In this document: positions 6,116-64,000 of the stretch, piece by piece
Position numbering within the stretch: position 1 is the first letter of the stretch
Layout of the letters: every line of letters begins with the position of its first letter
Assembly (NCBI GenBank): GCA_963669155.1
Contig: OZ022577.1
Location: forward strand, 12,891,395 to 12,955,394
Reading direction: 5' to 3'
Source of the DNA: Arbacia lixula
Lineage: Eukaryota > Echinodermata > Echinoidea > Arbacioida > Arbaciidae
Length of the DNA stretch: 64,000 bases
Notes under the pieces: generated by a model
What the model was told of the DNA's origin: nothing
Seen by the model: only the letters and a program-made list of their open reading frames with translations
Databases searched by the model: none
Made by a program: the position numbers and the translations under genes

Positions 6116-6182
6116 ATGGCCCGCAAACGGCAAACAGCTAGACAGAAGAAGGCCCAAAAGGATGCAGAGGGAGAGGAGACAG
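6116..6182 (+). CDS. PRPF39: PRPF39 exon 1 (start codon)
   Basis: Encodes a short basic N-terminus ([20 protein letters not shown]…). The start is chosen because it has G at -3 and +4, an in-frame TAA lies six bases upstream, and the frame runs into a GTAAAC donor in the phase needed by exon 2. An additional upstream coding exon cannot be excluded but is not needed. Confidence 0.75.
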
Positions 6183-15965: not shown

Positions 15966-16320
15966 GTAAGAAGCTATCTCTCTGACTATTGTACCGGTAA
16001 TCAGGGATGCCAGTGTGCCGGCAAAAGCCTGCAATCAGAGCTCAGGCTCTTTTCTTTCTGTGGTGGTGGGTTGATGGGTCAGTGTTCGTGCTCGGGTATG
16101 ATAGAGGGTTTAACCTTTTTTTTTTCATTTGCATGAAGACTGCATAGATTATGCGGACACTAAAAATTATTGCAACACGGCACTTTCACTGATGAACACA
16201 AATAGGTTTAGGGAGACTGTAGAATTATATAAATATGACAACATTTCATATTACCTACATCCAGTGTTTTTGCTGGAAATGTTTGCAAGAAGATTGGTCC
16301 TCTGACTTATGACGTTTTTT
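15966..16320 (+). other. Start of PRPF39 intron 9
   Basis: Non-repetitive intron sequence with a poly-T run near 16119. No exon for the next PRPF39 segment was found. Confidence 0.6.
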
Positions 16321-16872
16321 TATGCCTCCGCCACTAAGTGGCCGGAGGCATTATGTTTTCGGGTTGTCCGTCCGTCCGTCCGTCCGTCCCGAATCTGTTT
16401 TGGCAATATCTTGAGAACCGTGAACCAGATTTGCTTCAAACTTGGTACATGTGTGTATTGCATAAAACCAATGAAGTGTGTAAAATTGGGGTCAAATCTG
16501 ATTGAGGTCAAAGGTCAAAGAACATTGAGCATTGTGAAAAATTGCCCAAAATTGACCTTTTTCACATTAAATCCAAATCCAAGGATACAATTCTCATCAA
16601 ACATGGTACAAAGATGGATCACTACTTAGCGGTAGACTGGTGACATTTTGGGTAAAATTCCTGAAAGGTTAGAGGTGAAAGGTCAATGAACTTTGTGAAA
16701 AATTGCAAAAATTTCACCTTTTTCACAATAAATCCAAGTCCAAGGATGTAGTTCTCATTAAACATGGTACACGGATGGATCACTACTTGGGGATAGACTG
16801 ATGAAATTTTTGGTAAAATTCCTGAAAGGTCAGAGGTCAAAGGTCAACGCACTTTGCCAAAATCGGCTATTT
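16321..16872 (+). mobile_element. Helentron-like element, 3'-truncated copy
   Basis: Begins with the same TATGCCTCCGCCAC hairpin and a (TCCG)n block (16367-16389), and runs through two to three body subunits. It ends abruptly at AAAATCGGCTAT where another 5' end begins. No subterminal repeat or CTAG end. Either the next copy inserted into it or the two were joined by rearrangement. Confidence 0.65.
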
Positions 16873-16873
16873 T

Positions 16874-18146
16874 TATGCCTCCACGAAGTGGCCGGAGGCA
16901 TTATGTTTTCGGGTTGTCCGTTCCGAATCCGTTTAGGCAATATCTTGAGAACCGTTTAGCAGATTTGCTTCAAACATAGTATATGTGTGTATTGCATGTA
17001 ACTAATGAAGTGTGTAAAATTGGGGTCAAATATGATTGAGGTCAAAGGTCAAAGGTCAATGAACTTTGTAAAAATTGCCCAAAATTGACCTTTTTCACAA
17101 TAAATCCAAATTCAAGGATGCAATTCTCATTAAACATGGTACAAAGATGGATTACTACTTGCGGATAGACTGGTGACATTTTTGGTAAAATTCCTGAAAG
17201 GTCAGAGGTCAAAGGTCAATGAAATTTGTGAAAATTTGCCAAAAATTGACCTTTTTCACAATCTCATTAAACATGGTACAAAGATAGATCACTACTTGGG
17301 GATAGACTGGTGATATTTTTGGTAAAATTCCTGAAAGTTCAGAGGTCAAAGGTCAATGAATTTTGCCAAAATTGGCTAGAAATTGCCCCAAACTTTAAAT
17401 TTTTCACAACAAATCCAAATCCAATGGTGCAATTCCAACCAAACATAGTGAAACGATGGATTACTACTTATGGGTAGACTGGTGACATTGTTGGTGAAAT
17501 TGCTGGAAGGTCAAAGGTCAATGAACTTTGCAAAAATTGATATTTTTCACAATAAACCCAAATCCAATGGCGCAATTCTAACCAAACATGGTACAGAGAT
17601 GTATCACTTCATGGAGGTAGACTGGTGAAAGTTTGGGTGAAACTCCTGAGAGTTCAAAGGTCAAAGGTCAATGAACTTTGCCAAAAATTATCTAAAAATT
17701 GCCCCCAAAGTGATAATTCTCAAAATATATTTTCAAAGCCAATGGTGCAATGCCAACCAGACATGGTGCAAAGATGGAGGACTACTTGGGGGTAGACTGA
17801 TGACATTTTTGGTGAAATTTCTCAAAGGTCAGAAATCAAAGGTCAATGAACTTTGCCAAAATTGGCTAAAAATTGCCCCCAAATAGATATTTTTTCACAT
17901 TGAATCCAATGCTAATGATTCAATTCAAACTAAACATAGTACAGAGATGTATCACACCATGAAGGTAGACTGGTGAAGTTTGGGTAAAATTCCTGAAAGG
18001 TCAAAGGTCAATGAACTTCACCCAAAATTGGCTAATTTTAAACAAACTTGATACAAGGATGGATTTCGACAGACTGGTTAGATAGGAAGTCAAAGACGTA
18101 AGAGCTCAAAAGTCAATGAACATTGCCATACTTGACTAAACTTGTT
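16874..18146 (+). mobile_element. Helentron-like element ending at the satellite
   Basis: Starts TATGCCTCCACGAAGTGG (hairpin with 3-bp loss), with only a single TCCG. It then has about seven body subunits, more than the copy in intron 7. It aligns with the intron 7 copy down to GTCAATGAACATTGCCA but lacks the last ~130 bp (subterminal repeat, 3' hairpin, CTAG). The 65-bp satellite begins where those should be. Confidence 0.65.
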
Positions 18147-18742
18147 TAGCTCTGTTATTCATGGTGACTTTTTTCTTATAAGACATTATTTAACCTTTGA
18201 CTCCACTGTTAAGCTGTGGTATTGAGGGTGACTTTCCTCTTGTAAGACATTGTTTAACCCTTTGACTTTCCTCTTGTAAGACATTGTTTAACCCTTTGAA
18301 TCCACTGTTTAGCTGTGGTATTCAGGGTGACTTTCCTCTTCTAAGACATTGTTTAACCCTTTGATTCCAGTGTTGAGCTGTACTATTCAGGGTGACTTTC
18401 CTCTTGTAAGACATTGTTTAACCCTTTGAATCCACTGTTTAGCTGTGGTATTCAGGGTGACTTTCCTCTTCTAAGACATTGTTTAACCCTTTGATTCCAG
18501 TGTTGAGCTGTACTATTCAGGGTGACTTTCCTCTTGTAAGACATTGTTTAACCCTTTGAATCCACTGTTTTGCTGTGGTATTTAGGGTGACTTTCCTCTT
18601 GTAAGACATTGTTTAACCCTTTGACTCTACTGCTAAGCTGTGGTATTCATGGTGACTTTTCTCTGAATAAGACATTGTTTAAGCCTTTGACTCCACTGCT
18701 TAGCTGTGGTAGTCAGGGTGACTTCCCTCCTGTAAGACATCG
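18147..18742. repeat. Satellite array, diverged left edge
   Basis: About nine monomers of about 65 bp containing GACATTGTTTAACCCTTTGA and CAGGGTGACTTTCCTCTT. The first units are truncated or altered (TTCTTATAAGACATTATTT, a 36-bp partial unit near 18255), as expected at the edge of an array. Continues after the insertion at 18747-19855. Confidence 0.9.
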
Positions 18743-19859
18743 TTAACTCTTTGTGCGTTCACCTGTGAACCCCCTGTGCGTTGCATTAATTTGAGTGTGC
18801 GCATATTCCAATGAACTCTTGTCGGAGTAGTAGCTTTCAAGGGCTATAACTTTTTATTAGATTGTCGTGAGGAAAAATAGTGTACATATAAAATATAGAC
18901 AATTTCATGGGCTTTCCACTCATATGTATTTTGTCTGGCAGTTGAGGAGCTACTGTATCACAGGGCTTTACTTGTGCAGAACATTTGAAAAAAAAATGTC
19001 AACGTTTTCAGTAGTACTAATGTAAATGATATGTTGGACTCTTCATTTGCTGTAAATTGCAGGGAAATTATTACCTTTATTTTGCTAAGACCATGACCTT
19101 TCTATTGATATCAAAATCAATAAGTTTTGAAAAGAAGAAAGTTTGATGCAGGAAGTGCATAGAAAAGCCTGTATGGCCAAGAATTTGGCTTGATTAGGAC
19201 TCTAGGAGCTCTTTGTGTTGTAATACAAAAAGATCGCCTACAATGCGTACATGTACACGCACCCACTAAGACCATGACCTTTCTATTGATATCAAAATCA
19301 ATAAGTTTTGAAAAGAAGAAAGTTCGATACAGGATGTGCATAGAAAAGCCTGTATGGCCAAGAATTTGGCTTGGTTAGGACTCTAGGAGCTCTTTGTGTT
19401 GTAATACAGAGAGATCGCCTACAATGCGTACATGTACACACACCCACATAATCACAGTACAATAACAAGGAACTTGTGTGATTTTCTTCTGTACTGTTAT
19501 AGCTTAACATGTATACACATCATTTGTTGTTGTTTTCCATATACATGCAATCCATAATAACCCAGACTTGTGTACAGGAGAATACATTGTCAAAAAGGAA
19601 GTGCTTGTGTGTATGATGACAAGATGGAAAAAATACCGAAACAAAATGATCAAAATTCTCTGAAATCTTCTATGTAACCCTATGCTCCAACGCGAACGAG
19701 CAGAAAGCCTATTACAGTGACGATCGCGAGCAATAGTACCGAACAGTGTTACGGTTCGCAGTACGCACATATTTCCATTCACATGTATTCTGTGCAGAAT
19801 TGCGAACAAAACGTGTCCACGGTTGTGCATTGATGCGAACGAAACGTACAAAGAGTTAA
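18743..19859. mobile_element. TTAA-flanked insertion in the satellite (piggyBac-like nonautonomous?)
   Basis: A 1109-bp unrelated segment (18747-19855) interrupts the array. TTAA stands at 18743-18746 and again at 19856-19859, and the satellite itself has a TTAA at that point of its monomer. The ends are inverted: CTCTTTGTGCGTT on the left against CTCTTTGTACGTT read from the right. TTAA target duplication is the hallmark of the piggyBac superfamily; the terminal bases differ from the classic CCC start, so the superfamily is inferred. Inside lies a 181-bp tandem duplication (19085-19265 and 19266-19446). No transposase frame. Confidence 0.6.
19085..19446. repeat. 181-bp tandem duplication inside the insertion
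   Basis: Two consecutive copies start at CTAAGACCATGACC and end at CGCACCCAC/CACACCCAC. They differ at a small number of bases, so the duplication is fairly recent. Confidence 0.85.
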
Positions 19860-22800
19860 ACCCTTTGAATCCACTGTTTAGCGGTGGTATTCAGGGTGAC
19901 TTTCCTCTTGTAAGACATTGTTTAACCCTTTCACTGCATTGATAGTACATTGTTTAGCTCTGCTATTCATGGTTACTTTCCTCTTGTAAGACATTGTTTA
20001 ACCCTTTCACTGCATTGATAGTACATTGTTTAGCTCTGCTATTCATGGTGACTTTTCTGTCATGAGACATTGTTTAAGCCTTTGAATCCACTGTTTAGCT
20101 CTGTTATTCATGGTGACATTTCTCTGAATAAGACATTGTTTAACCCTTTGACTCCACTGCTTAGCTGTGGTAGTCAGGGTGACTTTCCTCTTCTAAGACA
20201 TTGTTTAACCCTTTGAATCCACTGTTAAGCTGTGGTATTCAGGGTGACTTTCCTCTTGTAATACATTGTTTAACCCTTTGATTCCAGTGTTGAGCTGTAC
20301 TATTCAGGGTGACTTTCCTCTTGTAAGACATTGTTTAACCCTCTGAATCTACTGTTTAGCTGTGGTATTCAGGGTGACTTTCCTCTTCTAAGACATTGTT
20401 TAACCCTTTGACTGCATTGATAGTACATTGTTTACAGTGTAGCTCTGCTATTCATGGTGACTTTTCTCTGTATGATACATTGTTTAACCCTTTGACTGTA
20501 CTGCTTAGCTGTGGTATTCAGGGTGACTTTCCCCTTGTAAGACATTGTTTAACCCTTTGACTCTACTGCTAAGCTGTGGTATTCAGGGTAACTTTCCTCT
20601 TCTAAGACATTGTTTAAACCCTCTGAATCTACTGTTTACTGTAGCTGTGGTATTTAGGGTGACTTTCCTCTTGTTAGACATTGTTTAACCCTTTCACTGC
20701 ATTGATAGTACATTGTTTAGCTCTGCTATTCATGGTGACTTTTCTCTGATGAGACATTGTTTAAGCCTTTGAATCCACTGTTTAGCTCTGTTATTCATGG
20801 TGACTTTTCTCTGAATAAGACATTGTTTAAGCCTTTGACTCCACTGACTTTCCTCTTGTAAGACATTGTTTAACCCTTTGACTGCATTGATAGTACAATG
20901 TTAAGCTCTGCTATTCATGGTGACTTTTCTCTGTATGAGACATTGTTTAACCCTCTGAATCTACTGTTTAGCTGTGGTATTCAGGGTGACTTTTCTCTTG
21001 TAAGACATTGTTTAACCCTTTGATTCCACTGTTAAGCTGTGGTATTCAGGGTGACTTTCCTCTTCTAAGACATTGGTTAACCCTTTGATTCCACTGTTAA
21101 GCTGTGGTATTTAGGGTGACTTTCCTCTTCTAAGACATTGTTTAACCCTTTGACTCTACTGCTAAGCTGTGGTATTCAGGGTAACTTTCCTCTTGTAAGG
21201 AATTGTTTAACCCTCTGAATCTACTGTTTAGCTGTGGTATTCAGGGTGACTTTCCTCTTCTAAGACATTGTTTAACCCTTTGACTGCATTGATATTACAT
21301 TGTTTAGCTCTGCTATTCATGGTTACTTTTCTCTGTATGAGACATTGTTTAACCCTTTGACTCTACTGCTTAGCTGTGGTATTCAGGGTGACTTTCCTCT
21401 TGTAAGACATTGTTTAACCCTTTGAATCTACTGTTTAGCTGTGGTGACTTTCCTCTTCTAAGACATTGTTTAACCCTTTGACTGCCTTGATAGTACATTG
21501 TTTAGCTCTGCTATTCATGGTGACTTTTCTCTGTATAAGACATTGTTTAATCCTTTGACTCCAGTGTTTAGCTGTACTATTCAGGGTGACTTTCCTCTTG
21601 TAAGACACTGTTTGACCCTTTGAATCTACTGTTAAGCTGCGGTATTTAGGGTGACTTTCCTCTTGTAAGACATTGTTTAACCCTTTGACTGCATTGATAG
21701 TACATTGTTTAGCTCTGCTATACATGGTGACTTTTCTCTGTATGAGACATTGTTTAACCCTCTGAATCTACTGTTTAGCTGTGGTATTGAGGGTGACTTT
21801 CCTCTTGTAAGACATTGTTTAACCCTTTGACTCTACTGCTAAGCTGTGGTATTCAGGGTAACTTTCCTCTTGTAAGACATTGTTTAACCCTCTGAATCTA
21901 CTGCTTAGCTGTGGTATTCAGGGTGACTTTCCTCTTGTAAGACATTGTTTAACCCTTTGAATCTACTGTTAAACTGTGGTATTTAGGGTGACTTTCCTCT
22001 TCTAAGACATTGTTTAACCCTTTGACTGCCTTGTTAGTACATTTTTTAGCTCTGCTATTCAAGGTGACTTTGCTCTGTATAAGACATTGTTTAATCATTT
22101 GACTCCAGTGTTAAGCTGTACTATTCAGGGTGACTTTCCTCTTGTAAGACACTGTTTGAACCTTTGAATCTACTGTTAAGCTATGGTATTGAGGGTGACT
22201 TTCCTCTTGTAAGACATTGTTTAACCCTCTGAATCTACTGTTTAGCTGAGGTATTTAGGGTGACTTTCCTCTTGTAAGACATTGTTTAACCCTTTCACTG
22301 CATTGATAGTACATTGTTTAGCTCTGCTATTCATGGTGACTTTTCTGTCATGAGACATTGTTTAAGCCTTTGAATCCACTGTTTAGCTCTGTTATTCATG
22401 GTTACATTTCTCTGAATAAGACATTGTTTAACCCTTTGACTCCACTGTTTAGCTGTGCTATTCATGGTGACTTTTTTCTGTATAAGACATTGTTTAACCC
22501 TTTGACTCCACTGCTTAGCTGTGGTAGTCAGGGTGACTTTCCTCTTCTAAGACATTGTTTAACCCTTTGAATCCACTGTTTAGCTGTGGTATTCAGGGTG
22601 ACTTTCCTCTTGTAATACATTGTTTAACCCTTTGATTCCAGTGTTGAGCTGTACTATTCAGGGTGACTTTCCTCTTGTAAGACACTGTTTGACCCTTTGA
22701 ATCTACTGTTTAGCTGTGGTATTGAGGGTGACTTTCCTCTTGTAAGACATTGTTTAACCCTCTGAATCTACTGTTTAGCTGTGGTATTCAGGGTGACTTT

Positions 22801-25800
22801 CCTCTTGTAAGACATTGTTTAACCCTTTGATTCCACTGTTAAGCTGTGGTATTGAGGGTGACTTTCCTCTTGTAAGACATTGTTTAACCCTTTGATTCCA
22901 CTGTTAAGCTGTGGTATTGAGGGTGACTTTCCTCTTGTAAGACATTGTTTAACCCTCTGAATCTACTGTTTAGCTGTGGTATTCAGGGTGACTTTCCTCT
23001 TCTAAGACATTGTTTAACCCTTTGACTGCATTGATAGTACATTGTTTACAGTGTAGCTCTGCTATTCATGGTGACTTTTCTCTGTATGATACATTGTTTA
23101 ACCCTTTGACTGTACTGCTTAGCTGTGGTATTCAGGGTGACTTTCCTCTTGTAAGACATTGTTTAACCCTTTGAATCTACTGTTTAGCTGTGGTATTCAG
23201 GGTGACTTTCCTCTTCTAAGACATTGTTTAACCCTTTGACTGCCTTGATAGTACATTGTTTAGCTCTGCTATTCATGGTGACTTTTCTCTGTATAAGACA
23301 TTGTTTAATCCTTTGACTCCAGTGTTTAGCTGTACTATTCAGGGTGACTTTCCTCTTGTAAGACACTGTTTGACCCTTTGAATCTACTGTTTAGCTGTGG
23401 TATTGAGGGTGACTTTCCTCTTGTAAGACATTGTTTAACCCTCTGAATCTACTGTTTAGCTGTGGTATTCAGGGTGACTTTCCTCTTGTAAGACATTGTT
23501 TAACCCTTTGATTCCACTGTTAAGCTGTGGTATTGAGGGTGACTTTCCTCTTGTAAGACATTGTTTAACCCTTTGATTCCACTGTTAAGCTGTGGTATTG
23601 AGGGTGACTTTCCTCTTGTAAGACATTGTTTAACCCTCTGAATCTACTGTTTAGCTGTGGTATTCAGGGTGACTTTCCTCTTCTAAGACATTGTTTAACC
23701 CTTTGACTGCATTGATAGTACATTGTTTACAGTGTAGCTCTGCTATTCATGGTGACTTTTCTCTGTATGATACATTGTTTAACCCTTTGACTGTACTGCT
23801 TAGCTGTGGTATTCAGGGTGACTTTCCTCTTGTAAGACATTGTTTAACCCTTTGAATCTACTGTTTAGCTGTGGTATTCAGGGTGACTTTCCTCTTCTAA
23901 GACATTGTTTAACCCTTTGACTGCCTTGATAGTACATTGTTTAGCTCTGCTATTCATGGTGACTTTTCTCTGTATAAGACATTGTTTAATCCTTTGACTC
24001 CAGTGTTTAGCTGTACTATTCAGGGTGACTTTCCTCTTGTAAGACATTGTTAACCCTTTCACTGCATTGATAGTACATTGTTTAGCTGTGCTATTCATGG
24101 TGACTTTTCTCTGTATAAGACATTGTCTAACCCTTTGACTCCAGTGTTTAGCTGTACTATTCAGGGTGACTTTCCTCTTGTAAGACACTGTTTGACCCTT
24201 TGAATCTACTGTTAAGCTGCGGTATTTAGGGTGATTTTCCTCTTGTAAGACATTGTTTAACCCTTTGACTGCATTGATAGTACATTGTTTAGCTCTGCTA
24301 TTCATGGTGACTTTTCTCTGTATGAGACATTGTTTAACCCTCTGAATCTACTGTTTAGCTGTGGTATTCAGGGTGACTTTCCCCTTGTAAGACATTGTTT
24401 AACCCTTTGACTCTACTGCTAAGCTGTGGTATTCAGGGTAACTTTCCTCTTCTAAGACATTGTTTAAACCCTCTGAATCTACTGTTTACTGTAGCTGTGG
24501 TATTTAGGGTGACTTTCCTCTTGTAAGACATTGTTTAACCCTTTCACTGCATTGATAGTACATTGTTTAGCTCTGCTATTCATGGTGACTTTTCTCTGAT
24601 GAGACATTGTTTAAGCCTTTGAATCCACTGTTTAGCTCTGTTATTCATGGTGACTTTTCTCTGAATAAGACATTGTTTAAGCCTTTGACTCCACTGACTT
24701 TCCTCTTGTAAGACATTGTTTAACCCTTTGACTGCATTGATAGTACAATGTTAAGCTCTGCTATTCATGGTGACTTTTCTCTGTATGAGACATTGTTTAA
24801 CCCTCTGAATCTACTGTTCAGCTGTGGTATTCAGGGTGACTTTTCTCTTGTAAGACATTGTTTAACCCTTTGATTCCACTGTTAAGCTGTGGTATTCAGG
24901 GTGACTTTCCTCTTCTAAGACATTGGTTAACCCTTTGATTCCACTGTTAAGCTGTGGTATTTAGGGTGACTTTCCTCTTCTAAGACATTGCTTAACCCTT
25001 TGACTCTACTGCTAAGCTGTGGTATTCAGGGTAACTTTCCATTTGTAAGGAATTGTTTAACCCTCTGAATCTACTGTTTAGCTGTGGTATTCAGGGTGAC
25101 TTTCCTCTTCTAAGACATTGTTTAACCCTTTGACTGCATTGATATTACATTGTTTAGCTCTGCTATTCATGGTTACTTTTCTCTGTATGAGACATTGTTT
25201 AACCCTTTGACTCTACTGCTTAGCTGTGGTATTCAGGGTGACTTTCCTCTTGTAAGACATTGTTTAACCCTTTGAATCTACTGTTTAGCTGTGGTGACTT
25301 TCCTCTTCTAAGACATTGTTTAACCCTTTGACTGCCTTGATAGTACATTGTTTAGCTCTGCTATTCATGGTGACTTTTCTCTGTATAAGACATTGTTTAA
25401 TCCTTTGACTCCAGTGTTTAGCTGTACTATTCAGGGTGACTTTCCTCTTGTAAGACACTGTTTGACCCTTTGAATCTACTGTTAAGCTGTGGTATTTAGG
25501 GTGACTTTCCTCTTGTAAGACATTGTTTAACTCTTTGACTGCATTGATAGTACATTGTTTAGCTCTGCTATACATGGTGACTTTTCTCTGTATGAGACAT
25601 TGTTTAACCCTCTGAATCTACTGTTTAGCTGTGGTATTGAGGGTGACTTTCCTCTTGTAAGACATTGTTTAACCCTTTGACTCTACTGCTAAGCTGTGGT
25701 ATTCAGGGTAACTTTCCTCTTGTAAGACATTGTTTAACCCTCTGAATCTACTGTTTAGCTGTGGTATTCAGGGTGACTTTCCTCTTCTAAGACATTGTTT

Positions 25801-26599
25801 AACCCTTTGACTGCATTGTTAGTACATTTGTTTAGCTCTGCTATTCATGGTGACTTTTCTCTGTATGAGACATTGTTTAACCCTTTGACTCTACTGCTTA
25901 GCTGTGGTATTCAGGGTGACTTTCCTCTTGTAAGACATTGTTTAACCCTTTGAATCTACTGTTAAACTGTGGTATTTAGGGTGACTTTCCTCTTCTAAGA
26001 CATTGTTTAACCCTTTGACTGCCTTGTTAGTACATTTTTTAGCTCTGCTATTCAAGGTGACTTTGCTCTGTATAAGACATTGTTTAATCATTTGACTCCA
26101 GTGTTAAGCTGTACTATTCAGGGTGACTTTCCTCTTGTAAGACACTGTTTGAACCTTTGAATCTACTGTTAAGCTATGGTATTAAGGATGACTTTCCTCT
26201 TGTAAGACATTGTTTAACCCTCTGAATCTACTGTTTAGCTGAGGTATTTAGGGTGACTTTCCTCTTGTAAGACATTGTTTAACCCTTTCACTGCATTGAT
26301 AGTACATTGTTTAGCTCTGCTATTCATGGTGACTTTTCTGTCATGAGACATTGTTTAAGCCTTTGAATCCACTGTTTAGCTGTGTTATTCATGGTTACAT
26401 TTCTCTGAATAAGACATTGTTTAACCCTTTGACTCCACTGTTTAGCTGTGCTATTCATGGTGACTTTTTTCTGTATAAGACATTGTTTAACCCTTTGACT
26501 CCACTGCTTAGCTGTGGTAGTCAGGGTGACTTTCCTCTTCTAAGACATTGTTTAACCCTTTGAATCCACTGTTTAGCTGTGGTATTCAGGGTGACTTTC

Positions 26600-44200: not shown

Positions 44201-45677
44201 TTTCTCTGTATGAGACATTGTTTAACCCTTTGACTCTACTGCTTAGCTGTGGTATTCAGGGTGACTTTCCTCTTGTAAGACATTGTTTAACCCTTTGAAT
44301 CTACTGTTAAACTGTGGTATTTAGGGTGACTTTCCTCTTCTAAGACATTGTTTAACCCTTTGACTGCCTTGTTAGTACATTTTTTAGCTCTGCTATTCAA
44401 GGTGACTTTGCTCTGTATAAGACATTGTTTAATCATTTGACTCCAGTGTTAAGCTGTACTATTCAGGGTGACTTTCCTCTTGTAAGACACTGTTTGAACC
44501 TTTGAATCTACTGTTAAGCTATGGTATTAAGGATGACTTTCCTCTTGTAAGACATTGTTTAACCCTCTGAATCTACTGTTTAGCTGAGGTATTTAGGGTG
44601 ACTTTCCTCTTGTAAGACATTGTTTAACCCTTTCACTGCATTGATAGTACATTGTTTAGCTCTGCTATTCATGGTGACTTTTCTGTCATGAGACATTGTT
44701 TAAGCCTTTGAATCCACTGTTTAGCTGTGTTATTCATGGTTACATTTCTCTGAATAAGACATTGTTTAACCCTTTGACTCCACTGTTTAGCTGTGCTATT
44801 CATGGTGACTTTTTTCTGTATAAGACATTGTTTAACCCTTTGACTCCACTGCTTAGCTGTGGTAGTCAGGGTGACTTTCCTCTTCTAAGACATTGTTTAA
44901 CCCTTTGAATCCACTGTTTAGCTGTGGTATTCAGGGTGACTTTCCTCTTGTAAGACATTGTTTAACCCTCTGAATCTACTGTTTAGCTGAGGTATTTAGG
45001 GTGACTTTCCTCTTGTAAGACATTGTTTAACCCTTTCACTGCATTGATAGTACATTGTTTAGCTCTGCTATTCATGGTGACTTTTCTGTCATGAGACATT
45101 GTTTAAGCCTTTGAATCCACTGTTTAGCTCTGTTATTCATGGTTACATTTCTCTGAATAAGACATTGTTTAACCCTTTGACTCCACTGTTTAGCTGTGCT
45201 ATTCATGGTGACTTTTTTCTGTATAAGACATTGTTTAACCCTTTGACTCCACTGCTTAGCTGTGGTAGTCAGGGTGACTTTCCTCTTCTAAGACATTGTT
45301 TAACCCTTTGAATCCACTGTTTAGCTGTGGTATTCAGGGTGACTTTCCTCTTGTAATACATTGTTTAACCCTTTGAATCTACTGTTTAGCTGTGGTATTG
45401 AGGGTGACTTTCCTCTTGTAAGACATTGTTTAACCCTCTGAATCTACTGTTTAGCTGTGGTATTCAGGGTGACTTTCCTCTTGTAAGACATTGTTTAACC
45501 CTTTGATTCCACTGTTAAGTTGTGGTATTGAGGGTGACTTTCCTCTTGTAAGACATTGTTTAACCCTCTGAATCTACTGTTTAGCTGTGGTATTTAGGGT
45601 GACTTTCCTCTTGTAAGACATTGTTAACCCTTTCCCTGCATTGATAGTACAATGTTAAGCTCTGCTATTCATGGTGA
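35360..45677. repeat. 5257-bp near-tandem duplication within the satellite
   Basis: About 35360-40420 recurs at about 40617-45677 with a constant offset of 5257 bp. Only isolated differences were noticed, for example ACTGTTTAGC at 38366 against ACTTTTTAGC at 43623. The ~200 bp between the copies match an earlier block at offset 8085 (2828 plus 5257). Confidence 0.75.
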
Positions 45678-51600: not shown

Positions 51601-52019
51601 GTACATTTGTTTAGCTCTGCTATTCATGGTGACTTTTCTCTGTATGAGACATTGTTTAACCCTTTGACTCTACTGCTTAGCTGTGGTATTCAGGGTGACT
51701 TTCCTCTTGTAAGACATTGTTTAACCCTTTGAATCTACTGTTAAACTGTGGTATTTAGGGTGACTTTCCTCTTCTAAGACATTGTTTAACCCTTTGACTG
51801 CCTTGTTAGTACATTTTTTAGCTCTGCTATTCAAGGTGACTTTGCTCTGTATAAGACATTGTTTAATCATTTGACTCCAGTGTTAAGCTGTACTATTCAG
51901 GGTGACTTTCCTCTTGTAAGACACTGTTTGAACCTTTGAATCTACTGTTAAGCTATGGTATTAAGGATGACTTTCCTCTTGTAAGACATTGTTTAACCCT
52001 CTGAATCTACTGTTTAGCT

Positions 52020-55000
52020 GAGGTATTTAGGGTGACTTTCCTCTTGTAAGACATTGTTTAACCCTTTCACTGCATTGATAGTACATTGTTTAGCTCTGCT
52101 ATTCATGGTGACTTTTCTGTCATGAGACATTGTTTAAGCCTTTGAATCCACTGTTTAGCTGTGTTATTCATGGTTACATTTCTCTGAATAAGACATTGTT
52201 TAACCCTTTGACTCCACTGTTTAGCTGTGCTATTCATGGTGACTTTTTTCTGTATAAGACATTGTTTAACCCTTTGACTCCACTGCTTAGCTGTGGTAGT
52301 CAGGGTGACTTTCCTCTTCTAAGACATTGTTTAACCCTTTGAATCCACTGTTTAGCTGTGGTATTCAGGGTGACTTTCCTCTTGTAAGACATTGTTTAAC
52401 CCTCTGAATCTACTGTTTAGCTGAGGTATTTAGGGTGACTTTCCTCTTGTAAGACATTGTTTAACCCTTTCACTGCATTGATAGTACATTGTTTAGCTCT
52501 GCTATTCATGGTGACTTTTCTGTCATGAGACATTGTTTAAGCCTTTGAATCCACTGTTTAGCTCTGTTATTCATGGTTACATTTCTCTGAATAAGACATT
52601 GTTTAACCCTTTGACTCCACTGTTTAGCTGTGCTATTCATGGTGACTTTTTTCTGTATAAGACATTGTTTAACCCTTTGACTCCACTGCTTAGCTGTGGT
52701 AGTCAGGGTGACTTTCCTCTTCTAAGACATTGTTTAACCCTTTGAATCCACTGTTTAGCTGTGGTATTCAGGGTGACTTTCCTCTTGTAATACATTGTTT
52801 AACCCTTTGAATCTACTGTTTAGCTGTGGTATTGAGGGTGACTTTCCTCTTGTAAGACATTGTTTAACCCTCTGAATCTACTGTTTAGCTGTGGTATTCA
52901 GGGTGACTTTCCTCTTGTAAGACATTGTTTAACCCTTTGATTCCACTGTTAAGTTGTGGTATTGAGGGTGACTTTCCTCTTGTAAGACATTGTTTAACCC
53001 TCTGAATCTACTGTTTAGCTGTGGTATTTAGGGTGACTTTCCTCTTGTAAGACATTGTTAACCCTTTCCCTGCATTGATAGTACAATGTTAAGCTCTGCT
53101 ATTCATGGTGACTTTTCTCTGTATGAGACATTGTTTAACCCTCTGAATCTACTGTTAAGCTGTGGTATTCAGGGTGACTTTTCTCTTGTAAGACATTGTT
53201 TAACCCTTTGATTCCACGGTTAAGCAGTGGTATTCAGGGTGACTTTCCTCTTCTAAGACATTGGTTAACCCTTTGATTCCACTGTTAAGCTGTGGTATTT
53301 AGGGTGACTTTCCTCTTCTAAGACATTGTTTCACCCTTTGACTCTACTGCTAAGCTGTGGTATTCAGGGTAACTTTCCTATTGTAAGACATTGTTTAATC
53401 CTCTGAATCTACTGTTTAGCTGTGGTATTCAGGGTGACTTTCCTCTTCTAAGACATTGTTTAACCCTTTGACTGCATTGATATTACATTGTTTAGCTCTG
53501 CTATTCATGGTTACTTTTCTCTGTATGAGACATTGTTTAACACTTTGACTCTACTGCTTAGCTGTGGTATTCAGGGTGACTTTCCTCTTGTAAGACATTG
53601 TTTAACCCTTTGAATCTACTGTTTAGCTGTGGTGACTTTCCTCTTCTAAGACATTGTTTAACCCTTTGACTGCCTTGATAGTACATTGTTTAGCTCTGCT
53701 ATTCATGGTGACTTTTCTCTGTATAAGACATTGTTTAATCCTTTGACTCCAGTGTTTAGCTGTACTATTCAGGGTGACTTTCCTCTTGTAAGACACTGTT
53801 TGACCCTTTGAATCTACTGTTAAGCTGCGGTATTTAGGGTGACTTTCCTCTTGTAAGACATTGTTTAACCCTTTGACTGCATTGATAGTACATTGTTTAG
53901 CTCTGCTATTCATGGTGACTTTTCTCTGTATGAGACATTGTTTAACCCTCTGAATCTACTGTTTAGCTGTGGTATTGAGGGTGACTTTCCTCTTGTAAGA
54001 CATTGTTTAACCCTTTGACTCTACTGCTAAGCTGTGGTATTCAGGGTAACTTTCCTCTTGTAAGACATTGTTTAACCCTCTGAATCTACTGTTTAGCTGT
54101 GGTATTCAGGGTGACTTTCCTCTTCTAAGACATTGTTTAACCCTTTGACTGCATTGTTAGTACATTTGTTTAGCTCTGCTATTCATGGTGACTTTTCTCT
54201 GTATGAGACATTGTTTAACCCTCTGAATCTACTGTTTAGCTGTGGTATTCAGGGTGACTTTCCCCTTGTAAGACATTGTTTAACCCTTTGACTCTACTGC
54301 TAAGCTGTGGTATTCAGGGTAACTTTCCTCTTGTAAGACATTGTTTAAACCCTCTGAATCTACTGTTTACTGTAGCTGTGGTATTTAGGGTGACTTTCCT
54401 CTTGTAAGACATTGTTTAACCCTTTCACTGCATTGATAGTACATTGTTTAGCTCTGCTATTCATGGTGACTTTTCTCTGATGAGACATTGTTTAAGCCTT
54501 TGAATCCACTGTTTAGCTCTGTTATTCATGGTGACTTTTCTCTGAATAAGACATTGTTTAAGCCTTTGACTCCACTGACTTTCCTCTTGTAAGACATTGT
54601 TTAACCCTTTGATTCCACTGTTAAGCTGTGGTATTGAGGGTGACTTTCCTCTTGTAAGACATTGTTTAACCCTCTGAATCTACTGTTTAGCTGTGGTATT
54701 CAGGGTGACTTTCCTCTTCTAAGACATTGTTTAACCCTTTGACTGCATTGATAGTACATTGTTTACAGTGTAGCTCTGCTATTCATGGTGACTTTTCTCT
54801 GTATGATACATTGTTTAACCCTTTGACTGTACTGCTTAGCTGTGGTATTCAGGGTGACTTTCCTCTTGTAAGACATTGTTTAACCCTTTGAATCTACTGT
54901 TTAGCTGTGGTATTCAGGGTGACTTTCCTCTTCTAAGACATTGTTTAACCCTTTGACTGCCTTGATAGTACATTGTTTAGCTCTGCTATTCATGGTGACT

Positions 55001-58000
55001 TTTCTCTGTATAAGACATTGTTTAATCCTTTGACTCCAGTGTTTAGCTGTACTATTCAGGGTGACTTTCCTCTTGTAAGACATTGTTAACCCTTTCACTG
55101 CATTGATAGTACATTGTTTAGCTGTGCTATTCATGGTGACTTTTCTCTGTATAAGACATTGTCTAACCCTTTGACTCCAGTGTTTAGCTGTGGTATTCAG
55201 GGTGACTTTCCTCTTGTAAGACATTGTTTAACCCTTTGAATCTACTGTTAAGCTGCGGTATTTAGGGTGACTTTCCTCTTGTAAGACATTGTTTAACCCT
55301 TTGACTGCATTGATAGTACATTGTTTAGCTCTGCTATTCATGGTGACTTTTCTGTCATGAGACATTGTTTAAGCCTTTGAATCCACTGTTTAGCTCTGTT
55401 ATTCATGGTTACATTTCTCTGAATAAGACATTGTTTAACCCTTTGACTCCACTGTTTAGCTGTGCTATTCATGGTGACTTTTTTCTGTATAAGACATTGT
55501 TTAACCCTTTGACTCCACTGCTTAGCTGTGGTAGTCAGGGTGACTTTCCTCTTCTAAGACATTGTTTAACCCTTTGAATCCACTGTTTAGCTGTGGTATT
55601 CAGGGTGACTTTCCTCTTGTAATACATTGTTTAACCCTTTGATTCCAGTGTTGAGCTGTACTATTCAGGGTGACTTTCCTCTTGTAAGACATTGTTTAAC
55701 CCTTTGACTGCATTGATAGTACATTGTTTAGCCCTGCTATTCATGGTGACTTTTCTCTGTATAAGACATTGTTTAATCCTTTGACTCCAGTGTTTAGCTG
55801 TACTATTCAGGGTGACTTTCCTCTTGTAAGACACTGTTTGACCCTTTGAATCTACTGTTAAGCTGCGGTATTTAGGGTGACTTTCCTCTTGTAAGACATT
55901 GTTTAACCCTTTGACTGCATTGATAGTACATTGTTTAGCTCTGCTATTCATGGTGACTTTTCTCTGTATGAGACATTGTTTAACCCTCTGAATCTACTTT
56001 TTAGCTGTGGTATTCAGGGTGACTTTCCCCTTGTAAGACATTGTTTAACCCTCTGAATCTACTGTTTAGCTGTGGTATTCAGGGTGACTTTTCTCTTGTA
56101 AGACATTGTTTAACCCTTTGATTCCACTGTTAAGCTGTGGTATTCAGGGTGACTTTCCTCTTGTAAGACACTGTTTGACCCTTTGAATCTACTGTTAAGC
56201 TATGGTATTGAGGGTGACTTTCCTCTTGTAAGACATTGTTTAACCCTCTGAATCTACTGTTTAGCTGTGGTATTTAGGGTGACTTTCCTCTTCTAAGACA
56301 TTGTTTAACCCTTTCACTGCATTGATAGTACATTGTTTAGCTCTGCTATTCATGGTGACTTTTCTCTCATGAGACATTGTTTAAGCCTTTAAATCCACTG
56401 TTTAGCTCTGTTATCCATGGTGACTTTTTTCTGAATAAGACATTGTTTAAGCCTTTGACTCCACTGCTTAGCTGTGGTAGTCAGGGTGACTTTCCTTTTG
56501 TAAGACATTGTTTAACCCTTTGAATATACTGTTTAGCTGTGGTATTCAGGGTGACTTTCCTCTTCTAAGACATTGTTTAACCCTTTCAATATACTTTTTA
56601 GCTGTGGTATTCAGGGTGACTTTCCTTTGGTAAGACATTGTTTAACCCTTTGAATCCACTGTTTAGCTGTGGTATTGTGGGTGACTTTCCTCTTCTAAGA
56701 CATTGTTTAACCTTTTGACTGCATTGATAGTACATTGTTTAGCTCTGCTATTCATGGTGCCTTTTCTCTGTATAAGACATTGTTTAACCCTTTGACTCCA
56801 CTGCTTAACCGTGGTATTCAGGGTGACTTCCCTCTTGTAAGACTTTGTTTAACCTTTTGAATCCACTGTTTTGCTGTGGTATTCAGGGTGACTTTCCTCT
56901 TCTAAGACATTGTTTAACCCTTTGACTGCATTGATAGTACAATGTTAAGCTCTGCTATTCATGGTGACTTTTTTCTGTATGAGACATTGTTTATCCCTCT
57001 GAATCTACTGTTTAGCTGTGGTATTCAGGGTGACTTTCCTCTTGTAAGACATTGTTTAACCCTTTGATTCCACTGTTAAGCTGTGGTATTTAGGGTGACT
57101 TTCCTCTTGTAAGACATTGGTTAACCCTTTGATTCCACTGTTAAGCTGTGGTTTTGAGGGTGACTTTCCTCTTGTAAGACATTGTTTAACCCTTTGACTC
57201 TACTGCTAAGCTGTGGTATTCAGGGTAACTTTCCTCTTGTAAGACATTGTTTAATCCTCTGAATCTACTGTTTAGCTGTGGTATTCAGGGTGACTTTCCT
57301 CTTCTAAGACATTGTTTAACCCTTTGACTGCATTGATAGTACATTGTTTAGCTCTGCTATTCATGGTGACTTTTCTCTGAATAAGACATTGTTTAAGCCT
57401 TTGACTCCACTGTTAAGCTGTGGTATTGAAGGTGACTTTCCTCTTGTAAGACATTGTTTAACCCTCTGAATCTACTGTTTAGCTGTGGTATTCAGGGTGA
57501 CTTTCCTCTTGTGAGACATTGTTTAACCCTTTGATTCCACTGTTAAGCTGTGGTATTGAGGGTGACTTTCCTCTTGTAAGACATTGTTTAACCCTCTGAA
57601 TCTACTGTTTAGCTGTGGTATTTAGGGTGACTTTCCTCTTGTAATACATTGTTAACCCTTTCACTGCATTGATAGTACATTGTTTAGCTGTGCTATTCAT
57701 GGTGACTTTTCTCTGTATAAGACATTGTCTAACCCTTTGACTCCAGTGTTTAGCTGTACTATTCAGGGTGACTTTCCTCTTGTAAGACACTGTTTGACCC
57801 TTTGAATCTACTGTTAAGCTGCGGTATTTAGGGTGATTTTCCTCTTGTAAGACATTGTTTAACCCTTTGAATCTACTGTTTAGCTGTGGTGACTTTCCTC
57901 TTCTAAGACATTGTTTAACCCTTTGACTGCCTTGATAGTACATTGTTTAGCTCTGCTATTCATGGTGACTTTTCTCTGTATAAGACATTGTTTAATCCTT

Positions 58001-61000
58001 TGACTCCAGTGTTTAGCTGTACTATTCAGGGTGACTTTCCTCTTGTAAGACACTGTTTGACCCTTTGAATCTACTGTTAAGCTGCGGTATTTAGGGTGAC
58101 TTTCCTCTTGTAAGACATTGTTTAACCCTTTGACTGCATTGATAGTACATTGTTTAGCTCTGCTATTCATGGTGACTTTTCTCTGTATGAGACATTGTTT
58201 AACCCTCTGAATCTACTGTTTAGCTGTGGTATTGAGGGTGACTTTCCTCTTGTAAGACATTGTTTAACCCTTTGACTCTACTGCTAAGCTGTGGTATTCA
58301 GGGTAACTTTCCTCTTGTAAGACATTGTTTAACCCTCTGAATCTACTGTTTAGCTGTGGTATTGTGGGTGACTTTCCTCTTCTAAGACATTGTTTAACCT
58401 TTTGACTGCATTGATAGTACATTGTTTAGCTCTGCTATTCATGGTGCCTTTTCTCTGTATAAGACATTGTTTAACCCTTTGACTCCACTGCTTAACCGTG
58501 GTATTCAGGGTGACTTCCCTCTTGTAAGACTTTGTTTAACCTTTTGAATCCACTGTTTTGCTGTGGTATTCAGGGTGACTTTCCTCTTCTAAGACATTGT
58601 TTAACCCTTTGACTGCATTGATAGTACAATGTTAAGCTCTGCTATTCATGGTGACTTTTTTCTGTATGAGACATTGTTTATCCCTCTGAATCTACTGTTT
58701 AGCTGTGGTATTCAGGGTGACTTTCCTCTTGTAAGACATTGTTTAACCCTTTCACTGCATTGATAGTACATTGTTTAGCTCTGCTATTCATGGTGACTTT
58801 TCTGTCATGAGACATTGTTTAAGCCTTTGAATCCACTGTTTAGCTGTGTTATTCATGGTTACATTTCTCTGAATAAGACATTGTTTAACCCTTTGACTCC
58901 ACTGTTTAGCTGTGCTATTCATGGTGACTTTTTTCTGTATAAGACATTGTTTAACCCTTTGACTCCACTGCTTAGCTGTGGTAGTCAGGGTGACTTTCCT
59001 CTTCTAAGACATTGTTTAACCCTTTGAATCCACTGTTTAGCTGTGGTATTCAGGGTGACTTTCCTCTTGTAAGACATTGTTTAACCCTCTGAATCTACTG
59101 TTTAGCTGAGGTATTTAGGGTGACTTTCCTCTTGTAAGACATTGTTTAACCCTTTCACTGCATTGATAGTACATTGTTTAGCTCTGCTATTCATGGTGAC
59201 TTTTCTGTCATGAGACATTGTTTAAGCCTTTGAATCCACTGTTTAGCTCTGTTATTCATGGTTACATTTCTCTGAATAAGACATTGTTTAACCCTTTGAC
59301 TCCACTGTTTAGCTGTGCTATTCATGGTGACTTTTTTCTGTATAAGACATTGCTTAACCCTTTGACTCCACTGCTTAGCTGTGGTAGTCAGGGTGACTTT
59401 CCTCTTCTAAGACATTGTTTAACCCTTTGAATCCACTGTTTAGCTGTGGTATTCAGGGTGACTTTCCTCTTGTAATACATTGTTTAACCCTTTGAATCTA
59501 CTGTTTAGCTGTGGTATTGAGGGTGACTTTCCTCTTGTAAGACATTGTTTAACCCTCTGAATCTACTGTTTAGCTGTGGTATTCAGGGTGACTTTCCTCT
59601 TGTAAGACATTGTTTAACCCTTTGATTCCACTGTTAAGTTGTGGTATTGAGGGTGACTTTCCTCTTGTAAGACATTGTTTAACCCTCTGAATCTACTGTT
59701 TAGCTGTGGTATTTAGGGTGACTTTCCTCTTGTAAGACATTGTTAACCCTTTCCCTGCATTGATAGTACAATGTTAAGCTCTGCTATTCATGGTGACTTT
59801 TCTCTGTATGAGACATTGTTTAACCCTCTGAATCTACTGTTAAGCTGTGGTATTCAGGGTGACTTTTCTCTTGTAAGACATTGTTTAACCCTTTGATTCC
59901 ACGGTTAAGCAGTGGTATTCAGGGTGACTTTCCTCTTCTAAGACATTGGTTAACCCTTTGATTCCACTGTTAAGCTGTGGTATTTAGGGTGACTTTCCTC
60001 TTCTAAGACATTGTTTCACCCTTTGACTCTACTGCTAAGCTGTGGTATTCAGGGTAACTTTCCTATTGTAAGACATTGTTTAATCCTCTGAATCTACTGT
60101 TTAGCTGTGGTATTCAGGGTGACTTTCCTCTTCTAAGACATTGTTTAACCCTTTGACTGCATTGATATTACATTGTTTAGCTCTGCTATTCATGGTTACT
60201 TTTCTCTGTATGAGACATTGTTTAACACTTTGACTCTACTGCTTAGCTGTGGTATTCAGGGTGACTTTCCTCTTGTAAGACATTGTTTAACCCTTTGAAT
60301 CTACTGTTTAGCTGTGGTGACTTTCCTCTTCTAAGACATTGTTTAACCCTTTGACTGCCTTGATAGTACATTGTTTAGCTCTGCTATTCATGGTGACTTT
60401 TCTCTGTATAAGACATTGTTTAATCCTTTGACTCCAGTGTTTAGCTGTACTATTCAGGGTGACTTTCCTCTTGTAAGACACTGTTTGACCCTTTGAATCT
60501 ACTGTTAAGCTGCGGTATTTAGGGTGACTTTCCTCTTGTAAGACATTGTTTAACCCTTTGACTGCATTGATAGTACATTGTTTAGCTCTGCTATTCATGG
60601 TGACTTTTCTCTGTATGAGACATTGTTTAACCCTCTGAATCTACTGTTTAGCTGTGGTATTGAGGGTGACTTTCCTCTTGTAAGACATTGTTTAACCCTT
60701 TGACTCTACTGCTAAGCTGTGGTATTCAGGGTAACTTTCCTCTTGTAAGACATTGTTTAACCCTCTGAATCTACTGTTTAGCTGTGGTATTCAGGGTGAC
60801 TTTCCTCTTCTAAGACATTGTTTAACCCTTTGACTGCATTGTTAGTACATTTGTTTAGCTCTGCTATTCATGGTGACTTTTCTCTGTATGAGACATTGTT
60901 TAACCCTCTGAATCTACTGTTTAGCTGTGGTATTCAGGGTGACTTTCCCCTTGTAAGACATTGTTTAACCCTTTGACTCTACTGCTAAGCTGTGGTATTC

Positions 61001-64000
61001 AGGGTAACTTTCCTCTTGTAAGACATTGTTTAAACCCTCTGAATCTACTGTTTACTGTAGCTGTGGTATTTAGGGTGACTTTCCTCTTGTAAGACATTGT
61101 TTAACCCTTTCACTGCATTGATAGTACATTGTTTAGCTCTGCTATTCATGGTGACTTTTCTCTGATGAGACATTGTTTAAGCCTTTGAATCCACTGTTTA
61201 GCTCTGTTATTCATGGTGACTTTTCTCTGAATAAGACATTGTTTAAGCCTTTGACTCCACTGACTTTCCTCTTGTAAGACATTGTTTAACCCTTTGATTC
61301 CACTGTTAAGCTGTGGTATTGAGGGTGACTTTCCTCTTGTAAGACATTGTTTAACCCTCTGAATCTACTGTTTAGCTGTGGTATTCAGGGTGACATTCCT
61401 CTTCTAAGACATTGTTTAACCCTTTGACTGCATTGATAGTACATTGTTTACAGTGTAGCTCTGCTATTCATGGTGACTTTTCTCTGTATGATACATTGTT
61501 TAACCCTTTGACTGTACTGCTTAGCTGTGGTATTCAGGGTGACTTTCCTCTTGTAAGACATTGTTTAACCCTTTGAATCTACTGTTTAGCTGTGGTATTC
61601 AGGGTGACTTTCCTCTTCTAAGACATTGTTTAACCCTTTGACTGCCTTGATAGTACATTGTTTAGCTCTGCTATTCATGGTGACTTTTCTCTGTATAAGA
61701 CATTGTTTAATCCTTTGACTCCAGTGTTTAGCTGTACTATTCAGGGTGACTTTCCTCTTGTAAGACATTGTTAACCCTTTCACTGCATTGATAGTACATT
61801 GTTTAGCTGTGCTATTCATGGTGACTTTTCTCTGTATAAGACATTGTCTAACCCTTTGACTCCAGTGTTTAGCTGTGGTATTCAGGGTGACTTTCCTCTT
61901 GTAAGACATTGTTTAACCCTTTGAATCTACTGTTAAGCTGCGGTATTTAGGGTGACTTTCCTCTTGTAAGACATTGTTTAACCCTTTGACTGCATTGATA
62001 GTACATTGTTTAGCTCTGCTATTCATGGTGACTTTTCTGTCATGAGACATTGTTTAAGCCTTTGAATCCACTGTTTAGCTCTGTTATTCATGGTTACATT
62101 TCTCTGAATAAGACATTGTTTAACCCTTTGACTCCACTGTTTAGCTGTGCTATTCATGGTGACTTTTTTCTGTATAAGACATTGTTTAACCCTTTGACTC
62201 CACTGCTTAGCTGTGGTAGTCAGGGTGACTTTCCTCTTCTAAGACATTGTTTAACCCTTTGAATCCACTGTTTAGCTGTGGTATTCAGGGTGACTTTCCT
62301 CTTGTAATACATTGTTTAACCCTTTGATTCCAGTGTTGAGCTGTACTATTCAGGGTGACTTTCCTCTTGTAAGACATTGTTTAACCCTTTGACTGCATTG
62401 ATAGTACATTGTTTAGCCCTGCTATTCATGGTGACTTTTCTCTGTATAAGACATTGTTTAATCCTTTGACTCCAGTGTTTAGCTGTACTATTCAGGGTGA
62501 CTTTCCTCTTGTAAGACACTGTTTGACCCTTTGAATCTACTGTTAAGCTGCGGTATTTAGGGTGACTTTCCTCTTGTAAGACATTGTTTAACCCTTTGAC
62601 TGCATTGATAGTACATTGTTTAGCTCTGCTATTCATGGTGACTTTTCTCTGTATGAGACATTGTTTAACCCTCTGAATCTACTTTTTAGCTGTGGTATTC
62701 AGGGTGACTTTCCCCTTGTAAGACATTGTTTAACCCTCTGAATCTACTGTTTAGCTGTGGTATTCAGGGTGACTTTTCTCTTGTAAGACATTGTTTAACC
62801 CTTTGATTCCACTGTTAAGCTGTGGTATTCAGGGTGACTTTCCTCTTGTAAGACACTGTTTGACCCTTTGAATCTACTGTTAAGCTATGGTATTGAGGGT
62901 GACTTTCCTCTTGTAAGACATTGTTTAACCCTCTGAATCTACTGTTTAGCTGTGGTATTTAGGGTGACTTTCCTCTTCTAAGACATTGTTTAACCCTTTC
63001 ACTGCATTGATAGTACATTGTTTAGCTCTGCTATTCATGGTGACTTTTCTCTCATGAGACATTGTTTAAGCCTTTAAATCCACTGTTTAGCTCTGTTATC
63101 CATGGTGACTTTTTTCTGAATAAGACATTGTTTAAGCCTTTGACTCCACTGCTTAGCTGTGGTAGTCAGGGTGACTTTCCTTTTGTAAGACATTGTTTAA
63201 CCCTTTGAATATACTGTTTAGCTGTGGTATTCAGGGTGACTTTCCTCTTCTAAGACATTGTTTAACCCTTTCAATATACTTTTTAGCTGTGGTATTCAGG
63301 GTGACTTTCCTTTGGTAAGACATTGTTTAACCCTTTGAATCCACTGTTTAGCTGTGGTATTGTGGGTGACTTTCCTCTTCTAAGACATTGTTTAACCTTT
63401 TGACTGCATTGATAGTACATTGTTTAGCTCTGCTATTCATGGTGCCTTTTCTCTGTATAAGACATTGTTTAACCCTTTGACTCCACTGCTTAACCGTGGT
63501 ATTCAGGGTGACTTCCCTCTTGTAAGACTTTGTTTAACCTTTTGAATCCACTGTTTTGCTGTGGTATTCAGGGTGACTTTCCTCTTCTAAGACATTGTTT
63601 AACCCTTTGACTGCATTGATAGTACAATGTTAAGCTCTGCTATTCATGGTGACTTTTTTCTGTATGAGACATTGTTTATCCCTCTGAATCTACTGTTTAG
63701 CTGTGGTATTCAGGGTGACTTTCCTCTTGTAAGACATTGTTTAACCCTTTGATTCCACTGTTAAGCTGTGGTATTTAGGGTGACTTTCCTCTTGTAAGAC
63801 ATTGGTTAACCCTTTGATTCCACTGTTAAGCTGTGGTTTTGAGGGTGACTTTCCTCTTGTAAGACATTGTTTAACCCTTTGACTCTACTGCTAAGCTGTG
63901 GTATTCAGGGTAACTTTCCTCTTGTAAGACATTGTTTAATCCTCTGAATCTACTGTTTAGCTGTGGTATTCAGGGTGACTTTCCTCTTCTAAGACATTGT
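52020..64000. repeat. 6685-bp tandem duplication, second copy cut by window end
   Basis: About 52020-58704 recurs from about 58705 to the window end at offset 6685. I noticed very few differences over the 5.3 kb available (for example GTTTAAC/GCTTAAC at 59352 and TGACTTTCC/TGACATTCC at 61393). This makes it one of the youngest events in the array. Confidence 0.8.

Follow-up and report, generated by a model that had tools for sequence, protein, structure and literature searches.

Why does the gene for the splicing factor PRPF39 of Arbacia lixula run, after its ninth exon, into tens of kilobases of satellite DNA? The window analysed here is the whole stretch of 64,000 nucleotides (C2:12891395-12955394), part of the 607-Mb genome that was searched. 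An initial annotation of this window had set two answers side by side: a satellite-rich intron longer than 48 kb, or a gene broken at this point by rearrangement or assembly. Our own answer, which we hold to be very probable, is that a non-autonomous Helentron-type element (HINE) with a 65-bp satellite was inserted in one copy of PRPF39 and that the array then grew in place.

Intron 9 and its empty site

Exon 9 ends at 15965, followed by a GTAAGA donor, and no further PRPF39 exon was found between it and window position 64000, both as first annotated. Exon 10 was located by searching downstream, as the annotation had proposed: it lies on the same contig and strand with the frame kept, and there is no N run between the window end and this exon. 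Intron 9 has a length of 56,239 bp, of which 53,690 bp are satellite, against the predicted minimum of 45 kb. In this assembled copy the long satellite-rich intron is thus real, and the flanking exons checked are intact. The array, placed from 18147 onwards by the annotation, starts at 18144 and is interrupted by one 1.1-kb element. The features concerned are as follows, on the window scale unless preceded by C2.

15966..64000, on to C2:12963598, plus strand: intron 9, 56,239 bp in total (385 bp in copy 2)
16322..18143, plus strand: 5' part of the giant HINE (from empty-site boundary, fold and end matches), with a short TCCG run and repeats of ~137-175 bp
16875 onwards, plus strand: second HINE 5' end (from end matches)
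18144..64000, on to C2:12963228 (71834 on the window scale), plus strand: 65-bp satellite array, 53,690 bp, C2:12909538-12963228
18743..19859, no strand assigned: element of 1.1 kb that interrupts the array; inverted ends of 17 nt, 94% complementary, with TTAA at either extremity
C2:12963229-12963566, beyond the window: HINE 3' end with hairpin and CTAG
C2:12963599-12963807, 8.2 kb past the window end, plus strand: PRPF39 exon 10, 209 nt, frame kept

A second copy of the locus is present 91 kb away on the next contig, across a 200-N gap, on the same scaffold and strand. The DNA of exons 8-9 with its surroundings, used as a query with the best 40 of 1600 candidates scored, gave two full-length places, the window and C2:12997592 (94%); the other 40 listed matches were short (~80-140 bp). 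Exons 9 and 10 of copy 2 are found at 12998427-12998553 and 12998939-12999147, with an intron 9 of 385 bp between them. The empty site of copy 2 reads GACGTTTTTTT directly followed by ACATGCATGC...TTTGCAG and exon 10, and the filled site of copy 1 reads GACGTTTTTTT, the insert from ATGCCTCCGCCAC... to ...CTAGTT, and then again ACATGCATGC...TTTGCAG and exon 10. The insert, 55.85 kb long, interrupts the alignment of the two copies at a T-run that lies 30 nt before exon 10. There is no target-site duplication at this T-run, PRPF39 being the only locus where an empty site was compared.

HINE and satellite are both missing from copy 2 at one and the same point, which argues against an array that was already present in the intron and had HINEs inserted on each side. 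The two HINE 5' ends on the left side would fit such a history; the left and right junctions, in contrast, are found again at other loci with their order and strand unchanged, and we consider such a history extremely unlikely.

The gene itself is not broken, as exon 10 and the later exon segments continue in frame and in the same orientation beyond the array. What stands of the suggested 'rearrangement or assembly' is that the next contig has a second copy with the 385-bp intron, so that the long intron is found in one copy only. One open PRPF39 frame runs across exons 1-9 (6116-15965) and extends through exon 10. Splice dinucleotides and frame are intact for exons 1-11, and exon segments 11-13 follow downstream of exon 10, the limits of 12 and 13 being set by frame and inexact. 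The product of exons 1-10, excluding the acidic N-terminal stretch, matches the Pfam models HAT_PRP39_N (7e-74) and HAT_PRP39_C (3e-70), and the PDB match of the gene is 6g70, PRPF39. An unrelated downstream gene was also ruled out, since the peptide of exons 10-12 matches residues 438-586 of PRPF39 in 6g70. The remaining features of the gene within the window, all on the plus strand, are given below.

6116..6182: exon 1, open frame, GT donor
6725..7269: exon 2, AG/GT, frame kept
8756..8881: exon 3, AG/GT, frame kept
10923..11041: exon 4, AG/GT
11248..11418: exon 5, AG/GT
11969..12182: exon 6, AG/GT
13115..13225: exon 7, AG/GT
13382..14533: short HINE in intron 7, without satellite (end matches, GTCC microsatellite, 172-bp repeats)
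15033..15197: exon 8, AG/GT
15839..15965: exon 9, AG/GT, donor GTAAGA

The two copies are most likely two alleles placed in tandem by the assembly, judging from their alignment. They are collinear from C2:12893208 to 12979502 in the window copy, with several kb-size insertions in either. Over thirteen exon segments they differ at 27 of 2338 nt with zero gaps (15 codons synonymous and 12 nonsynonymous, 8 of the latter in exon 2), and the mismatch in two large blocks is 1.84% and 3.96% of aligned sites. Furthermore, the homology of the first contig to the second reaches to within 12 bp of the end of the first.

Alternatively, the copies are true tandem paralogues, where PRPF39 has been duplicated and the giant HINE is found in the upstream copy only. 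The tandem position on one scaffold and strand, and the intactness of both copies, agree with this, and several observations weigh against the allelic reading. For the first 680 bp of contig 2, and for stretches of 1.2 kb and 2.2 kb close to its start, no counterpart exists in those parts of contig 1 that were tested, and further insertions or deletions beyond a simple allele overlap are needed to account for them. Two neighbouring gaps also lack overlapping flanks in the stretches compared: at one of them (5.7 kb against 32.7 kb) there was no match of at least 150 bp, and at the other the flanks share one 161-bp match at 77% and do not overlap otherwise. On the other hand, the copies are on two contigs which overlap end to start across the 200-N gap, and no third full-length place for the exon 8-9 region was found among the best 40 of 1600 candidates. 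Block mismatches of 1.8% and 4.0% with several kb-size indels are compatible with allelic variation, the excerpt available of PMC10511450 giving a k-mer heterozygosity of 5.16% in the sea star Patiria pectinifera. We regard paralogues as unlikely, though worth keeping in view.

Three side observations concern the same region. Exon 2 encodes an acidic repeat at 6737-6914, and of the 27 coding positions at which the copies differ, 13 are in this exon. Among the kb-size indels is C2:12968426-12973175, ~4.7 kb, in copy 1 only. Upstream of PRPF39, window positions 380-1281 contain short tandem repeats of the ACTACCCCCAGGACA type followed by their reverse complement, in a part without collinear match in copy 2.

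The giant HINE and its satellite array

Both ends of the insert were compared with the features of Helentron-type elements. The 5' subterminal inverted repeat ATGCCTCCGCCACTAAGTGGCCGGAGGCAT folds (z -5.9 against shuffles), and an inverse subterminal repeat, GGCGGAGGCAT, is found near the 3' end, followed by an 8-bp hairpin ending 10 nt before the end of the element. The 3' end also folds better than shuffles (z -3.5). Microsatellite and central repeats are present as a TCCG run in the giant HINE, a GTCC array in the intron-7 HINE and repeats of 137-175 bp in both. Portions of the 5' and 3' ends of the intron-7 HINE are found in copy 2 too (C2:12996052-12996083 and 12997084-12997144). With these features the insert is classed, from sequence, as a non-autonomous Helentron-type element carrying satellite; on the left of the giant element two HINE 5' ends are present, against one 3' end found.

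The array contains 966 hits to the satellite motif. An ungapped scan placed 84% of it in pairs of segments of 1.2 kb or longer sharing at least 98.5% identity, the longest such pair being 7.3 kb at 99.75%. The duplicated segments lie at many different offsets (2.0-25.8 kb), and neither edge of the array falls within the near-identical segments. The element at 18743-19859 may be a piggyBac-like MITE, which its TTAA-bounded inverted ends would fit. Its TTAACTCTTTG end resembles TTAACCCTTTG of the 65-bp unit, and the satellite may be derived from an end like this one.

We propose the following steps. Rolling-circle transposition would have brought the HINE into the T-run, 30 nt short of the splice acceptor of exon 10, and large unequal exchanges would then have enlarged the array in place to 53.7 kb, a 385-bp intron thereby becoming a 56.2-kb intron. 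The long intron would still be spliced, with a branch point now provided by the element, because the insert should have moved the native branch-point region 55.85 kb away from the acceptor.

A different order of events, with the array already expanded by the time of insertion, or expanding during it, through errors in the rolling-circle replication of the HINE, appears quite unlikely to us. Two HINE 5' ends on the left with one 3' end is the pattern of plant arrays of truncated Helitrons in the excerpts of PMC12628747, and amplification of this kind could also yield locus-specific near-identical segments. Many different offsets with the edges spared are, in contrast, as in repeated unequal exchange, and the HINE ends are not multiplied along the array. 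A satellite block from elsewhere, misjoined into the intron by the assembly, is considered very unlikely. Near-identical segments of several kb are difficult to assemble, and the other copy has a short intron; but the insert is bounded on each side by a HINE end at a T-run, its flanks match the empty site, no N run is present inside it, and the same architecture is found at other loci.

Some further points count against insertion followed by growth in place. The HINE class is set from ends, repeats and target site; the array length comes from an assembly in which many segments are nearly identical, and the true length may differ; and the evidence that favours growth in place over earlier amplification is indirect.

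Relatives of the insert, their host genes and orientation

The junctions of the insert were used as queries against the genome. For the 201-bp HINE-satellite left junction, at least 8 other full-length matches (91-98%) were found on C11, C16, C18 (2), C19, C20 (2) and C22, a lower bound because scores were computed for the best 40 of 1419 candidates. With the satellite-HINE 3' junction as query, at least 25 other places matched, each beginning at base 1 of the query and reaching base 412 or further (best 40 of 3189 candidates scored). Seven of the eight left junctions were paired with a downstream right end on the same strand, with spans of 69.0 kb (C18), 20.1 kb (C11), 17.1 kb (C22), 12.9 kb (C16), 11.3 and 8.1 kb (C20) and 4.4 kb (C19); for the C11, longer C20 and C19 spans the right match comprises the HINE part only. 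The left junction at C18:4667317 has no partner right end among the matches listed.

Ten interior samples of 1 kb, four from the C18 span and one from each other span, were all satellite on the expected strand, with 275-462 unit 10-mers each, whereas 60 background windows had no more than 1; the span interiors are known from these samples. The left flanks of five elements were read, and the HINE 5' end is visible in three and not in the other two. Intact CTAG 3' ends at other satellite-junction loci are followed by TT in 16 of 17 cases, compared to 6 of 7 for control HINEs. A further pair of ends was seen at C6:5966516-6083977, where a HINE end is followed by satellite at 5.967 Mb and satellite-HINE ends are located at 6.083 Mb; being on the same strand and 117 kb apart, they are possibly a still larger array or else two separate ones.

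The arrays are homogenised locus by locus. All seven 1-kb pieces of the PRPF39 array that were tested have a 100% partner over 300 bp within the same array, and the ten samples from other loci reach at best 91.0-97.3% over 300 bp against it. Of the four C18 samples, three, at distances of 15-45 kb from one another, have stretches of 100% identity in common; the best value for the fourth is 96.7%. Near-identical segments within a locus, with the edges excluded, are what unequal exchange in place predicts.

Both flanks were partly read for five elements, and four of these are each inside one conserved gene, with exons on both sides and in sense orientation. The first host is a mitochondrial carrier (Mito_carr 2e-23, two stretches; intron ~73 kb), which we take to be SLC25A16-like. 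The second is a PREB-like WD40 gene (5tf2, 2e-22, query residues 3-128; intron ~22.6 kb), for which other WD40 proteins match too, some of them better. The third, a DUF1308 gene and presumably C7orf25-like, has one continuous match across the element (8e-35) and an intron of 16.3 kb, the element being inserted ~20 nt past the exon. The fourth is NUP205 (6lk8, 1e-18, two stretches, with no Pfam match), where the intron of ~20 kb is an upper limit, as an unseen exon may lie between those found. In the flanks read of the fifth element, at C20:4962178, no host gene was found; a second HINE is present, and transposon-like open reading frames were seen by eye.

Additionally, 14 further right flanks of 1.40-1.48 kb each were scanned in six frames; three are from spans of measured length (C20:4.15 Mb, C19:12.50 Mb and C20:4.97 Mb), whereas 11 are from arrays of unmeasured size. 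The 42 sense frames matched Kelch (4e-14), TIP120 (7.5e-11), HPS5 (2.6e-10) and K319L-PKD (3.5e-9), with four further Kelch models and Imm25 (0.0065, weak and unlikely) below these, and the 42 antisense frames gave no match at 0.01. The HPS5 match was located to flank L066, and Kelch and K319L to open reading frames of L057 and L069. Sense reading frames chosen by eye gave cohesin SA-2 (5e-20, L059) and a weak WD40 match (9e-4, L064), the latter presumably AAMP-like; three others chosen in the same way in right flanks had no match.

As a control, 10 right flanks were taken of HINEs listed in the left-junction search. One (L075, the C6 locus above) carried satellite and was excluded, leaving nine without satellite (L071-L074, L076-L080), of which L072-L074 are near-copies of one repeat and hence not independent. 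Their sense frames matched GH31 (2e-11) and Fe-S_biosyn (2e-7), with two weak matches (0.0012 and 0.0054), and their antisense frames gave none. Because HINEs without satellite also give sense host matches only, the orientation bias is not tied to the satellite, and sense orientation looks general to the HINE family. T-rich sense strands of introns as targets would be the simplest reason for it.

Motif counts were made for the PRPF39 array. Its sense strand contains no AATAAA or ATTAAA and 357 GTAAGA, and its antisense strand contains 48 ATTAAA and 2 AATAAA, both of the latter in the inserted element. Because a single unit is repeated, such counts are one property and not hundreds. The HINE body does carry sense signals (3 AATAAA and 4 ATTAAA in the left part, 1 AATAAA in the right part), and on this ground, together with the control flanks, avoidance of polyadenylation signals was ruled out as the cause of sense orientation. 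The same data bear on a link that the initial annotation had drawn to the gene's own role, and on a reading of the long intron as a functional device for the part of PRPF39 in U1-dependent 5' splice-site choice. The many GTAAGA and the missing sense AATAAA/ATTAAA could be read in favour of such a device; however, these follow from one repeated unit, the HINE body has sense signals, relatives of the insert are found in genes of unrelated function, and the other PRPF39 copy does without the insert. We find no support for the link and consider the device hardly credible.

Consequences and comparison with known systems

The insert would add a competing AG 32 nt upstream of the native acceptor, and the use of this AG, or skipping of the 209-nt exon 10, is predicted to shift the frame. 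At usual elongation rates the added length would delay transcription by about half an hour. On a broader proposal, we are evenly divided between acceptance and doubt: one Helentron family would repeatedly seed sense-oriented satellite in introns of conserved genes, with arrays growing separately to as much as ~70 kb, and alleles of one gene could differ ~150-fold in the length of an intron. Such alleles, if the proposal is true, would amount to a natural allelic series for the load on splicing and the delay of transcription. Should the two copies be alleles, one animal carries a 385-bp and a 56-kb version of the same intron, and allele-specific RNA could measure the cost. Growth of arrays to tens of kb in gene-rich DNA, and the tolerance of working genes for satellite, have mostly been studied in heterochromatin or on the Y. 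At PRPF39 the carrier, the empty site and the grown array can all be seen, and relatives at other genes allow comparison.

The known systems below are described from excerpts of the papers cited, and the comparisons apply to these excerpts. HINE or DINE-1-like Helentrons have a 5' palindromic subterminal repeat with its inverse near the 3' end, a 3' palindrome and a preference for TT insertion, and some copies carry microsatellite or tandem repeats (PMC4067079). Ends, repeats and TT target are alike in the present case, where the element is 55.9 kb. In the Cg_HINE elements of the Pacific oyster, HINE ends enclose satellite-like central arrays whose orientation is fixed (PMC7492417, PMC8268682). 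They share with the present element the central arrays, a GTCC-type microsatellite, the lack of a target-site duplication, T-rich targets, empty sites and some positions near or in genes. The difference is in size: the longest oyster array has 29 monomers in PMC7492417, and most inspected satellites have maxima of 9-48, with one exception, in PMC8268682, compared to 53.7 kb (966 motif hits) at PRPF39 and a 69-kb span at C18.

Long arrays tied to Helitrons (up to several hundred repeats) are also known from plants, as rolling-circle arrays of truncated elements, and from heterochromatin, as arrays of repeats borne by Helitrons (PMC12628747); multiple 5' ends with a single 3' end occur there as well. 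There, whole truncated elements are repeated or the setting is heterochromatin, whereas here a short unit is repeated within one genic element. In Drosophila americana a polymorphic 172TR insertion of 1.5 kb is found in a gene intron (PMC10783647). The presence or absence of an intronic array is alike; that array is 1.5 kb, is present in one strain and absent from others, and is described in the excerpt with HINE ends unmentioned.

The Drosophila Y genes kl-3 and kl-5 have giant introns filled with satellite (PMC6508621), and the initial annotation had compared PRPF39 with fly Y-linked genes of this kind. The comparison holds in that satellite lies within introns of protein-coding genes, and fails in that the carrier here is a Helentron-like transposon. 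Furthermore, the fly introns span megabases in Y-linked spermatogenesis genes, whereas the present ones are tens of kb, bounded by transposon ends and in general cellular genes. In the open-licence literature searched, no report of HINE-bounded intronic arrays of tens of kb was found. HINE satellite arrays as such are thus already known, and what looks new is their size of tens of kb and their genic setting.

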